In this document: positions 40,231 through 43,618 of the stretch, piece after piece
Position numbering within the stretch: position 1 is the stretch's first letter
Layout: every line of letters begins with the position of its first letter
Assembly: GCF_008729015.1 (NCBI RefSeq)
Contig: NZ_RKSM01000001.1
Location: 2,046,001 to 2,110,000, forward strand
DNA length: 64,000 nucleotides
Origin: Haloarcula sp. CBA1129
GTDB taxonomy: Archaea > Halobacteriota > Halobacteria > Halobacteriales > Haloarculaceae
Reading direction: 5' to 3'
Notes under the pieces: generated by a model
Told to the model about the DNA's origin: nothing
Databases searched by the model: none
The model's input: only the letters and a program-made list of their open reading frames with translations
Position numbers and translations under genes: made by a program

Positions 40231-40566
40231 ATGAAACCGCTCAGTATTGGGGGCGACCTCGGTGCCGGGAACTGGGACATCGCCGCCGTCGTTGTCCTTT
40301 CCGCTGTAGCCGGGGCGGTCCTGTGTGGGCTCGCTCTGGTGGCGTACCGGCAGCGCGGGACTCGTGCGTATCTGTTGATTGTGCTCGCACTCACCGCGCT
40401 GTTTGCCCGCCCACTCATCGCACTGTTGTCAGGGTTCGCTGTGGTCTCAGAACCGACTCACCATTTTATCGAACACGCGCTCGATACCCTCTTTGTCGTC
40501 CTCGTCCTCGGTGCAGTGTATTACGCCCGGACAGTCGAGAAACGCCTCAACAAGGAGGGGCTATGA
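40231..40566 (+). CDS. Small three-helix membrane protein paired with a wHTH gene
   Basis: A 111-residue membrane protein with three helices (about residues 16-38, 46-65 and 80-98) and a short charged C terminus (RTVEKRLNKEGL). No known enzymatic motif. Its stop overlaps the start of the wHTH regulator gene as ATGA, so the pair is coupled; the pairing suggests that the membrane protein senses something and the regulator responds, an inference from context only. Confidence 0.75.
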   Translation: MKPLSIGGDLGAGNWDIAAVVVLSAVAGAVLCGLALVAYRQRGTRAYLLIVLALTALFARPLIALLSGFAVVSEPTHHFIEHALDTLFVVLVLGAVYYARTVEKRLNKEGL

Positions 40567-41066
40567 GCGACACCAGAGCCCGAATCCACCGGCATATCGA
40601 GTCGAACCCTGGTGTTCACTTCCGAGAACTAACGCGGGCACTGGACCTCGCAACGGGACAGGTCCAGTACCATCTGGCCCGGCTTGACCGCGTTCACAGC
40701 GAGTCAGTCAACGGGCGCACGCACTACTACCCGGCGTCATTTGGTCTCTGGGAGCGCCACGCCATCGCCTTCCTCCGGCGGGAGACGGCAAGAGACATTC
40801 TCGTGACGCTCATAGAGTGCGAGACCGCTCGCCCCAGCGAGGTGTCCGACCACCTCGATATCGCCCGGAGCACGCTCGAACACCACCTCAGCGGCCTAGT
40901 CGAATACGATATCGTCGAAAAGCGCCGAGACAGTGGCCGGGTGACGCTGGCGCTCTGCCGGCCGGAGTTGACTGTCGAACTGCTCACAGCGGTCGACCCC
41001 ACGGCCTCCGAGCGCCTGTCGGATCGCTTCGCCCGGTTACTTGACCGTCTCTTCGAGAGCGGCTAG
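40563..41066 (+). CDS. Tandem winged-helix transcription regulator
   Basis: A 167-residue DNA-binding protein containing two winged-helix units: residues 5-60 (HFRELTRALDLATGQVQYHL) and 80-140 (SEVSDHLDIARSTLEHHL). Both have the recognition helix pattern of ArsR/MarR-like archaeal repressors. It is translationally coupled to the membrane protein just upstream and is followed 81 bp later by the DyP-like gene, which it may regulate. Confidence 0.82.
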   Translation: MSDTRARIHRHIESNPGVHFRELTRALDLATGQVQYHLARLDRVHSESVNGRTHYYPASFGLWERHAIAFLRRETARDILVTLIECETARPSEVSDHLDIARSTLEHHLSGLVEYDIVEKRRDSGRVTLALCRPELTVELLTAVDPTASERLSDRFARLLDRLFESG

Positions 41067-41147: not shown

Positions 41148-42413
41148 ATGACTGAACGCGGGATTTCCCGACGCGAGTTCGCTAAAAGCGCCGTCGCCAT
41201 CGGCGGCACCGCGGCGCTGGCCGCCTGCCTCGACCGCGGGTCGGGGACGGTGCCCGAAGGAACCGACGACCCCTCGTCGCTTCCGGAGCGCCAGCACGCG
41301 TGGGACACGTCACTGGCGACCGACGACGCGGGGAACCACCGACTGTCGCGCCACCACGTCCTCTTGTTACTGGATTACACCGGCGACGGGACGCCGACGG
41401 ACGCCGACCGCGAGCAGGCCGAGGCAGCGCTTCGAGGTCTCGAACAGGCCTACGAGTGGAGTAACGAGGGGCTGCTGTTCACGCTCGGGTACAGTCCGGC
41501 CTACTTCGACCGCTTCGAGGCCGACGTCGCCGGCGTCGACCTGCCCGAGCCAATGGCGCTTGCCCCGTTTGAAGACCCCGAACTCGACACGCCCGACGCC
41601 CTGCTTCACCTCGCTAGTGACGACGAGCGCGTCGTCATCGAGGCCGAGGAAGCGCTCAAGGGCAATCGAGATACCGCAAACGACCACGAAATAAGTGCTA
41701 CCTTCGAGGGCATCTTTCGCGAGGCGGAGCGACGGACGGGATTCGTCGGGGCCGGCCTGCCCGCTGAGAAGCAGGACATCGACGGGGTTCCGGACTCCGA
41801 ACCGGTCCCAGAGGAAGCCCCGCTGTTCATGGGGTTCAAATCCGGGTTCAAGGAGAATCAGGCCTCCGAGGACCGCGTGACGGTCGATTCGGGGCCGTTC
41901 GCAGGCGGCACGACCCAGCACCTCTCGAAAATCCGACTGCAACTCCAGCAGTGGTACGAACAGGATTCCCGGGACCAGCGCGTCTCGAAGATGTTCTGTC
42001 CGGCCCACGCCGCCGAAGACAAGGTCGAAGGCGTCGGCGAGAACCTCGGCACTGACAACGGGGCTGGCGAGTGTCCCGAGGACGTGGTTGACAGCGGTAG
42101 ACGGGACGGCGTCGTCGGCCACGCACAGAAGATGTCCCGCGTCAGAGAAGACGGGACGCCGACCATTCTCCGCCGGGACTTTAGTTCGACCGACGGCGGC
42201 GAAGCAGGGCTGCACTTCCTCTCGCTGCAGCGCTCTATTGCCGACTTCGTCGCGACGAAACAGGCGATGAACGGGACAGACGTCGCTAACGACTCCGCTG
42301 TCGGCCAGCGAGTGAACAACGGCATTCTCCAGTACATGACCGTCGCGCGACGCGGGAACTACCTGCTCCCGCCGCGGGACCTGCGGGCACTCCCGCCGGC
42401 CGACCCGGCCTGA
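41148..42413 (+). CDS. DyP-peroxidase-like Tat lipoprotein lacking the catalytic Asp
   Basis: A 421-residue exported protein. The N terminus SRREFAKSAVAIGG is a Tat signal that ends in a lipobox, LAAC, so it should be anchored outside the membrane. The rest resembles dye-decolorising peroxidases: GHAQKMSR (H325) sits where the proximal haem His is found, followed by PTILRRDF and GLHFLSLQRSIADF, which mirror the family's LRRG and LLF-x-A-x-Q regions. The distal motif normally reads G-x-x-D-G; here it is GFKSG (about 229-233), with Ser for the catalytic Asp. EfeB-type DyPs extract or handle iron from haem, and the neighbour resembles a P19 iron-transport protein. Confidence 0.72.
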   Translation: MTERGISRREFAKSAVAIGGTAALAACLDRGSGTVPEGTDDPSSLPERQHAWDTSLATDDAGNHRLSRHHVLLLLDYTGDGTPTDADREQAEAALRGLEQAYEWSNEGLLFTLGYSPAYFDRFEADVAGVDLPEPMALAPFEDPELDTPDALLHLASDDERVVIEAEEALKGNRDTANDHEISATFEGIFREAERRTGFVGAGLPAEKQDIDGVPDSEPVPEEAPLFMGFKSGFKENQASEDRVTVDSGPFAGGTTQHLSKIRLQLQQWYEQDSRDQRVSKMFCPAHAAEDKVEGVGENLGTDNGAGECPEDVVDSGRRDGVVGHAQKMSRVREDGTPTILRRDFSSTDGGEAGLHFLSLQRSIADFVATKQAMNGTDVANDSAVGQRVNNGILQYMTVARRGNYLLPPRDLRALPPADPA

Positions 42414-42559: not shown

Positions 42560-43618
42560 ATGAATCGCCGAGAGTTCCTCGCCAGTACCGGTCTCGCCGG
42601 CACGACGGTTCTGGCGGGGTGTGGTTCGCTGAGTTCCCAGTCGACACGCGCCCCACCGCTGGTCGAGAACCGCCCCGACGCCACGTACCGCCCCACCCAC
42701 GCTGAGGGAATGGGGATGGCCGGGATGGCACAGGCGGGCGAGTACATGGTCGGGCTGAGCTACTCCTTTCCCCACCGCTTCTGGACCGTGACTGGGACGA
42801 CGGCCGAGAAGGTCGACATCCGGAGCAAAGATAGCCTCCACCTGATGGCGACCGTCTGGGACCCCGAGACGGAAATGGTCCTCCCGGTGTCCGCCGGCCT
42901 CTCGATCACTATTGAGCGCGACGGCGAGACGGTCGCAAACAAGTCTCCATGGCCGATGATCTCTCAGAACATGGGGTTTCACTACGGAGACAACTACGCG
43001 CTGGACGGTGACGGCGTCTACCAGCTTTCGGTCCGCGTCAACGGAATGAGCGAACGTCGGCTGGGGGCCTTCGAGGGACGGTTCGGCGAGGCCGGCGAGG
43101 CCACAGTCGAGTTCGACTTCGCACAGAACAGTCGTGATCAGCTCTCCTTCGAGGAGTTCCCCGAGACACAGGGCGAACGCGCGGCGGTCGACCTGATGAA
43201 TATGGACATGGTGCCGACATCGCAAGTCCCCGAAGTATCTGCGCTCCCCGGAACAGTGCTCGGAACAGACAAAGGAAGCGACGGCGTCTACGCCGTCACA
43301 TGGCTTCGGGACGCCGAATTCCTCGCCGACGGGGAGTCGTATCTCGCCGTCTCGGCTCGGACACCGTACAACCGCGTCCCCCTTCCGATGATGTCTCTCG
43401 ACGGAACCGTAGACACCAACGGTGAGACGGTGTTTGACGACGCGCTGACCGCCGCGGTCCATCCCGAACTCGGATATCACTACGGCGCAACCGTCGAGAC
43501 GACAGCGCAGGAGCCGTCTGTCGGTGTCGACATCGTTGCCCCACCGCAGGTGTCCCGTCACGAGGGGTACGAGACGGCGTTCCTGACGACGCCCTCGTTT
43601 TCGTTTTCAGGCAACTGA
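42560..43618 (+). CDS. P19-like (iron/copper transport) Tat lipoprotein with two copies of the domain
   Basis: A 352-residue exported lipoprotein: Tat signal NRREFLASTG and lipobox LAGC. The first domain (about residues 45-185) shows SPWPMISQNMGFHYGDN, close to the P19/Iron_transport pattern of Met and His metal ligands followed by HYG-x-N (H141). The second half (about 215-352) repeats the theme, with PLPMMSLDG and HPELGYHYGAT (H307). P19-type proteins act as periplasmic metal binders next to iron permeases. None is in the window. A Met-rich GMGMAGMAQ stretch near residue 50 may add ligands. Confidence 0.68.
   Translation: MNRREFLASTGLAGTTVLAGCGSLSSQSTRAPPLVENRPDATYRPTHAEGMGMAGMAQAGEYMVGLSYSFPHRFWTVTGTTAEKVDIRSKDSLHLMATVWDPETEMVLPVSAGLSITIERDGETVANKSPWPMISQNMGFHYGDNYALDGDGVYQLSVRVNGMSERRLGAFEGRFGEAGEATVEFDFAQNSRDQLSFEEFPETQGERAAVDLMNMDMVPTSQVPEVSALPGTVLGTDKGSDGVYAVTWLRDAEFLADGESYLAVSARTPYNRVPLPMMSLDGTVDTNGETVFDDALTAAVHPELGYHYGATVETTAQEPSVGVDIVAPPQVSRHEGYETAFLTTPSFSFSGN

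Follow-up and report, generated by a model that had tools for sequence, protein, structure and literature searches.

The locus analysed here raises the question of what a dye-decolorising peroxidase (DyP)-like protein does when the distal Asp of its haem pocket has been replaced. The window, a 64,000-nt stretch of the Haloarcula sp. CBA1129 genome, carries a gene that a sequence-only reading had described as encoding a Tat-exported lipoprotein in which the GxxDG motif of DyPs reads GFKSG. That reading had suggested that peroxide chemistry is reduced in the protein, or replaced by a haem- or iron-binding role. We identify the product as a member of the DUF7405 family which, together with an adjacent P19-fold lipoprotein, probably forms an unrecognised metal-handling pair. 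The features of the gene are as follows, in window coordinates.

41148..42413, + strand: gene for the DUF7405 protein (PF24152), a Tat lipoprotein of 421 aa with a DyP/EfeB fold (Pfam, AlphaFold model, PDB fold matches)
41169..41174, + strand: twin-arginine pair R8-R9 of the signal (SRREF...; R9 in 45/45 homologues)
41217..41228, + strand: lipobox LAAC with Cys27 (Cys in 48/49 homologues)
41832..41846, + strand: GFKSG (residues 229-233) at the GXXDG site (profile-profile and MAFFT alignment)
41841-41843, + strand: codon of Ser232, where the catalytic Asp is replaced (alignments; count over 108 sequences)
41868..41870, + strand: Glu241 (NQASE), a family-specific invariant acid just past the motif (108/108)
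42120..42122, + strand: His325, the predicted proximal haem ligand, corresponding to EfeB His329 (108/108; alignment)
42171..42176, + strand: Arg342-Arg343, the predicted distal Arg (EfeB Arg347) and its neighbour (107/108; alignments)
42210..42218, + strand: LHF (residues 355-357), where DyPs have the LLF block (F357 107/108, H356 98/108)

The protein is a full-length DUF7405 member (Pfam match 553.9 bits, cut-off 27.1). It also matches Dyp_perox_C (PF20628) over residues 227-382 at 26.7 bits (cut-off 20), as do 17 of 32 family members, and several relatives have already been named 'Dyp-type peroxidase domain-containing protein' by NCBI. Its TIGR01413 score is 22.4, against a cut-off of 100.5. 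We found no mention of DUF7405 in the literature searched, and the family has no assigned function. The Tat signal and LAAC lipobox noted from the sequence are borne out by their conservation among homologues. The nearest of these, from Haloarcula species, are 94-95% identical, and dN/dS within Haloarcula is 0.06-0.07, indicating that the gene is strongly constrained and not decaying. An ORF at 41367-42215, antisense to the DUF7405 gene, was taken as mechanical.

The expectation of a DyP-like fold was confirmed by structure prediction. The top PDB matches of the AlphaFold model (pLDDT 85, pTM 0.87) are all DyPs or EfeBs (Foldseek E 8e-16), EfeB entries lead a fold comparison with Z 26-27 over about 300-320 residues, and the protein as modelled has the two ferredoxin-like domains of the DyP fold. 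When a profile of 51 DUF7405 relatives was compared with one of 13 EfeB/DyP proteins (E. coli EfeB and 12 others), the two matched with a probability of 98.6% (E 1e-15), and GFKSG lay opposite the GFKDG of EfeB. A joint MAFFT alignment places EfeB Asp235, His329, Arg347 and Arg348 opposite Ser232, His325, Arg342 and Arg343, respectively. By hhalign alone the His blocks are three residues out of register, with a gap between them, whereas MAFFT puts them together; each histidine is invariant within its own group, and for this reason we follow MAFFT here. In the 421-aa translation, GHAQKMSR begins at G324, H325 falls within VVGHAQK, and R342 and R343 fall within ILRRDF. The positions and residues given in the earlier reading are correct. 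Of the blocks it listed as retained, the His325 region and LRR hold, while the supposed LLF is in fact LHF. His325 is predicted to be the proximal haem ligand and Arg342 the distal Arg, and Ser232 stands where the superfamily has its catalytic Asp.

Identity to DyPs is 15-20%. Neither the protein on its own nor the profile of its family retrieved a DyP from the PDB sequences (a BURRH match was to the signal helix, and matches to an SDR and a spike protein were chance), so the DyP kinship is visible only by profile-profile and fold comparison. Within the DyP/EfeB structural superfamily, the DUF7405 protein thus represents a divergent branch; it is a putative peroxidase at most and not an EfeB, and its closest DyP group is class I/EfeB.

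The replacement at the GXXDG site extends well beyond this gene. Among 108 full-length DUF7405 homologues, the Asp position is occupied by Ser in 80, Ala in 21, Asn in 4, and Thr, Gly and Asp in one each; of the 13 control DyPs, 12 have Asp at this place and one has Glu, and reviews give the distal residue of DyPs as Asp, seldom Glu (PMC7611857). A homologue from the bacterial Bipolaricaulota, 46% identical, has Ser here too. Since Ser or Ala is found nearly throughout, this homologue included, the loss predates the radiation of DUF7405: the change is family-wide and ancient, and no peculiarity of the window gene. The single Asp belongs to a divergent paralogue, L109:2593-4812 (-), which is intact, reads GFNDQ without the following Gly and has a C-terminal extension. 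It is nested in a clade without P19, and we rejected the idea that the main line has preserved an ancestral Asp here. His325 and Glu241 are present in 108/108 homologues, Arg342, Arg343, Trp269 and Phe357 in 107/108, and His356 in 98/108. From its conservation and position, Glu241 could possibly be a substitute acid for the missing Asp. A redox pair of Cys284 and a second Cys was also considered and rejected, Cys284 being present in only 55/108.

The genes around DUF7405 offer further clues. Those needed for the argument are listed here.

40231..40566, + strand: DUF7471 small membrane protein (PF24283, 93.8 bits), with a 4-nt overlap with the regulator gene
40563..41066, + strand: winged-helix regulator (HTH_HVO_0163_N and ArsR-type HTH; Pfam), directly upstream of the DUF7405 gene
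42560..43618, + strand: partner, a Tat lipoprotein with a P19/FtrA-fold first domain and a DUF7350 second domain (Pfam, fold)

The partner matches PF24041 (DUF7350) with 174 bits and PF10634 (P19 Iron_transport) with 24.6 bits (cut-off 21). In its AlphaFold model (pLDDT 88.5), residues 47-194 match FetP, FtrA, HftA, Tp34 and P19 with Z 12.4-13.3. The PM..HYG metal-site residues of P19 are present, and the metal-site candidates H94, M96, M133, M138 and H141 are each found in 21/21 sequences. In the Natronococcus and Halostagnicola type of this protein (L037:6290-7675, L042:6292-7608), a long His/Asp/Glu-rich insert that resembles metal-binding linkers separates the two domains. Upstream, DUF7471 and the HTH protein are probably a membrane-linked regulator pair, which recurs near DUF7405 in other genera; at L015, L017, L030 and L048 it is found near DUF7405/P19 even with inverted gene order.

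A P19 gene lies near DUF7405 at 70 of 110 loci, a lower bound given that some loci are short, and within 600 nt at 61. P19 follows DUF7405 on the same strand in 52 cases and precedes it, also on that strand, in 4; another 14 pairs are divergent and none is convergent, as expected for co-regulated genes. Across 80 haloarchaeal genomes, DUF7350/P19 was found in 67/67 with main-type DUF7405 (E <1e-140 in the genome search) and in 0/13 without it. Of the 13 genomes lacking P19, 11 have no DUF7405, and G094 and G114 have the paralogue type only. Fisher's test gives 3e-15, a value that assumes independent genomes and is overstated by their kinship. Patterns within genera are informative in this respect. 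In genus g11, both genes are present in G053, G072 and G226 and neither in G066, G084, G104, G167, G345 and G366 (G094 has the paralogue only); in genus g3, G216 has both, and G221 and G280 have neither. Main-type DUF7405 and P19 have therefore moved together more than once.

The permease that usually accompanies EfeB, and likewise P19, is FTR1. It was found in 0/80 haloarchaeal genomes, with positive controls detected, and we rejected a canonical EfeUOB/FTR1 system on this basis. The membrane transporter of the module, if there is one, is not FTR1, and a search for a permease or an oxidase target of the DUF7405/P19 module found none. A polytopic membrane protein of ~470 aa, encoded near DUF7405 at L019:8539-9960 (-) and at 11 further loci, is a candidate transporter; it has no Pfam or NCBIfam match, and only a distant homologue is present elsewhere in the window's genome. 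At two Halobacterium loci (L025:7439-9468, L028:6321-7615), ORFs for a LolD-like ATPase and a MacB/FtsX-like permease follow DUF7405 or P19, and these resemble ABC genes in the Campylobacter p19 cluster (PMC6083913).

Which metal might such a pair handle? We take Met133 and His141 of the partner to fit the copper ligands of P19; H94-x-M96 sits roughly at P19 H42-x-E44, a match by position only. The iron/Mn site of C. jejuni P19 is formed by Glu3, Glu44, Asp46 and Asp92, with the copper site ~7 A away (PMC9174327). An HMM alignment sets 'NDGPHYGDN' of FtrA opposite 'QNMGFHYGDN' of the partner, so that the Asp92 equivalent is Met138 (21/21), and Glu44, again by position only, corresponds to Met96; the acidic iron site of P19 (Glu44, Asp92) is accordingly missing. 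A Bipolaricaulota MAG contig (L047:4429-9922) has the order P19 - DUF7405 - SCO1. Its P19, directly before DUF7405, is of the canonical short form and scores above cut-off for both PF10634 (36 bits) and DUF7350 (30.6 bits), and a SCO1/SenC protein (55.6 bits) directly follows DUF7405, an arrangement seen in this one MAG contig only. Further along the contig are a Mn catalase and an ORF resembling Fur, making this bacterial locus an oxidative/metal stress neighbourhood. Met in place of hard acids and the SCO1 neighbour lead us to lean towards Cu(I), and on these sequence grounds copper seems slightly more likely than iron as the metal of the partner. The main text of an H. volcanii iron-starvation proteome gives no DyP, lipoprotein or copper lead (PMC11349517).

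Of 81 genomes sampled from the haloarchaeal order, 70 carry DUF7405, as against 0/312 other genomes of the phylum; with 1/100 Bipolaricaulota genomes, the bacterial case is a rare one. The window's genome carries a second DUF7405 copy, 42% identical, in molybdenum-enzyme-like surroundings and without P19 (L053:7813-9030 (-), G000:C1:1519812-1521029; motif GFFAG). To judge from their translations, the ORFs around it resemble MobA, an AOR-family oxidoreductase, a TorD-like chaperone, a ferredoxin/Hdr-like protein and a Tat molybdopterin oxidoreductase. Paralogue-type DUF7405 has P19 beside it at none of 19 loci (L091-L109), and such clades suggest that the DUF7405 fold serves another role as well. 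We also asked whether the genome encodes a further DyP of the standard kind and rejected this, PF20628 having a single match.

Several known systems come close to the module. With EfeB/YcdB and class I (type A) DyPs, the DUF7405 protein shares Tat export, the fold (Z ~27), the proximal His and distal Arg, the GXXxG loop, and the LRR and GL-F blocks; unlike them, it has Ser or Ala for the distal Asp, a lipid anchor, and a P19 partner instead of EfeO. The Tat signal is also common to EfeUOB, from which the haloarchaeal module differs in the absence of FTR1/EfeU from 80 genomes and in a score of 19.3 bits against the 428 required by the EfeB equivalog model TIGR01412. In S. lividans, the gene for the class I DyP DtpA shares an operon with sco and ecuc, and the copper-dependent maturation of GlxA requires DtpA (PMC4736821). 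There, too, a Tat-exported class I DyP lies beside extracytoplasmic copper chaperones, as bacterial DUF7405 adjoins SCO1, but DtpA has kept its Asp, which it needs for fast compound I formation (PMC8463360), and its operon has no P19. FepA-FepB of S. aureus is likewise a pair of lipoprotein and Tat DyP, and works without a permease (PMC3577903), although FepA is EfeO-like (M75) rather than P19, and FepB is a standard DyP. The partner in turn shares its first-domain fold and the PM...HYGDN motif with P19/FtrA/FetP (Campylobacter P19-FTR1 cluster, PMC6083913). It differs in its additional DUF7350 domain, its lipid anchor and the Met residues replacing iron-site acids, and in being paired with a DyP-fold protein, not FTR1.

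Whether peroxide chemistry could survive without Asp can be judged from mutants of true DyPs. EfeB D235A is inactive and D235N active, and in BsDyP neither Asp nor Arg is individually required (PMC8395514). Changing Asp to Ala leaves DtpB identical to the wild type and dependent on Arg; DtpAa is indifferent to Asp, and for DtpA its loss brings the rate down to a few per second (PMC8463360). Asp mutants thus range from dead to wild-type-like, and the rule 'no Asp, no peroxidase' is not warranted. A haem protein that has Arg and lacks Asp could thus make compound I, if slowly, and this could suffice to take one electron from a bound metal. The earlier suggestion of reduced peroxide chemistry, or of a haem or iron role, is plausible for DUF7405. 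A metal-related role is favoured by evidence outside that suggestion: a P19-fold protein strictly co-occurs, and is linked, with DUF7405.

We give an even chance to a model in which DUF7405 is a lipid-anchored, Asp-less, EfeB-like haem protein that cooperates with a P19 carrier to handle Cu/Fe outside the cytoplasm; fold, residues, conservation, linkage and co-occurrence are what we observe, and haem, redox role, metal and direction are what we infer. In this model, the family lost the distal Asp before radiating while keeping the proximal His and distal Arg. The protein would most likely bind haem and be the obligate redox partner of the adjoining P19-fold lipoprotein, which may hold a metal ion at the outer face of the membrane. 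The haem protein could then oxidise the P19-bound metal, or swap electrons with it, by low-rate peroxide chemistry that uses Arg and perhaps Glu241, and the metal would thereby be handed on or rendered safe. DtpA of S. lividans offers a precedent (PMC4736821). A more specific version, which we put forward tentatively and regard as rather doubtful, is an FTR1-independent Cu (or Fe) system of haloarchaea and a bacterium, made up of an Asp-less DyP haem protein and a Met-type P19. The haem protein would oxidise carrier-bound Cu(I)/Fe(II) via Arg (and Glu241), and this DyP branch may have been selected for single-metal redox, not peroxidase turnover. The Cu/Fe-pair reading is weakened because Ser/Ala at the Asp site matches the inactive EfeB D235A (PMC8395514), because no permease or oxidase target was found, SCO1 occurs in one MAG contig and paralogue clades lack P19, and because the change of Glu44 to Met96 is assigned by position.

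Other explanations have to be weighed against this one. DUF7405 might instead scavenge haem iron, binding extracellular haem and passing the iron to P19 with the porphyrin spared, in the manner of FepB/FepA or EfeB/EfeO. For haem-iron use in E. coli, FepA and FepB are both required and are sufficient without the permease FepC, and the peroxidase activity of the system is low (PMC3577903); a like two-protein, obligate logic is apparent in DUF7405-P19, again with FTR1 in 0/80 genomes. However, the deferrochelatase activity of DyPs is disputed (PMC8197335), porphyrin (PPIX) production by EfeB needed the peroxidase residues as well (PMC3577903), and the partner here is P19 and not EfeO, with Met at the P19 iron-site acids. 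We consider this explanation unlikely. The same mutant data bear on an ordinary DyP-like surface peroxidase, acting in peroxide detoxification or on organics via Arg342 alone or Glu241, for which the link to P19 would be incidental to regulation. The wild-type-like, Arg-dependent DtpB mutant (PMC8463360) and the retention of Arg (107/108) and Glu241 (108/108) speak for it, yet a general peroxidase would not be expected to co-occur strictly with P19, the D235A mutant of the class I enzyme EfeB is inactive (PMC8395514), and the best-studied active class I DyPs retain Asp, so that we judge it decidedly unlikely.

It is also conceivable, if very unlikely, that the pocket holds no haem and that the protein is a scaffold or metal-binding relic serving as a structural partner of P19. 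Along with the missing Asp and the change of LLF to LHF, other DyP-invariant positions are altered (e.g. EfeB R273 to S260, and G295/R296), but the near invariance of His325 and the Arg pair is hard to explain without haem or an equivalent ligand. An alignment artefact, with the true distal Asp elsewhere, might be suspected from the low identity to DyPs (15-20%) and the three-residue offset of the His region in hhalign. We regard it as extremely improbable, as G-F-K-x-G is matched gap-free by two methods, and the loop that follows has no invariant Asp, its only invariant acid being Glu241.

What is new here is the paired module and a natural, large-scale replacement of the Asp. Of the 81 haloarchaeal genomes sampled, 70 carry this DyP-fold family, nearly always without the residue that defines the chemistry of the superfamily; a 2015 survey had reported no archaeal DyPs (PMC4420034). 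The exchange of Asp for Ser/Ala with His and Arg kept amounts to a natural experiment, and opens the Asp-or-Arg question of DyPs to direct testing. Through their strict pairing, DUF7405 and the P19 protein's DUF7350, two families without an assigned function, gain a common metal-handling role that can be tested.
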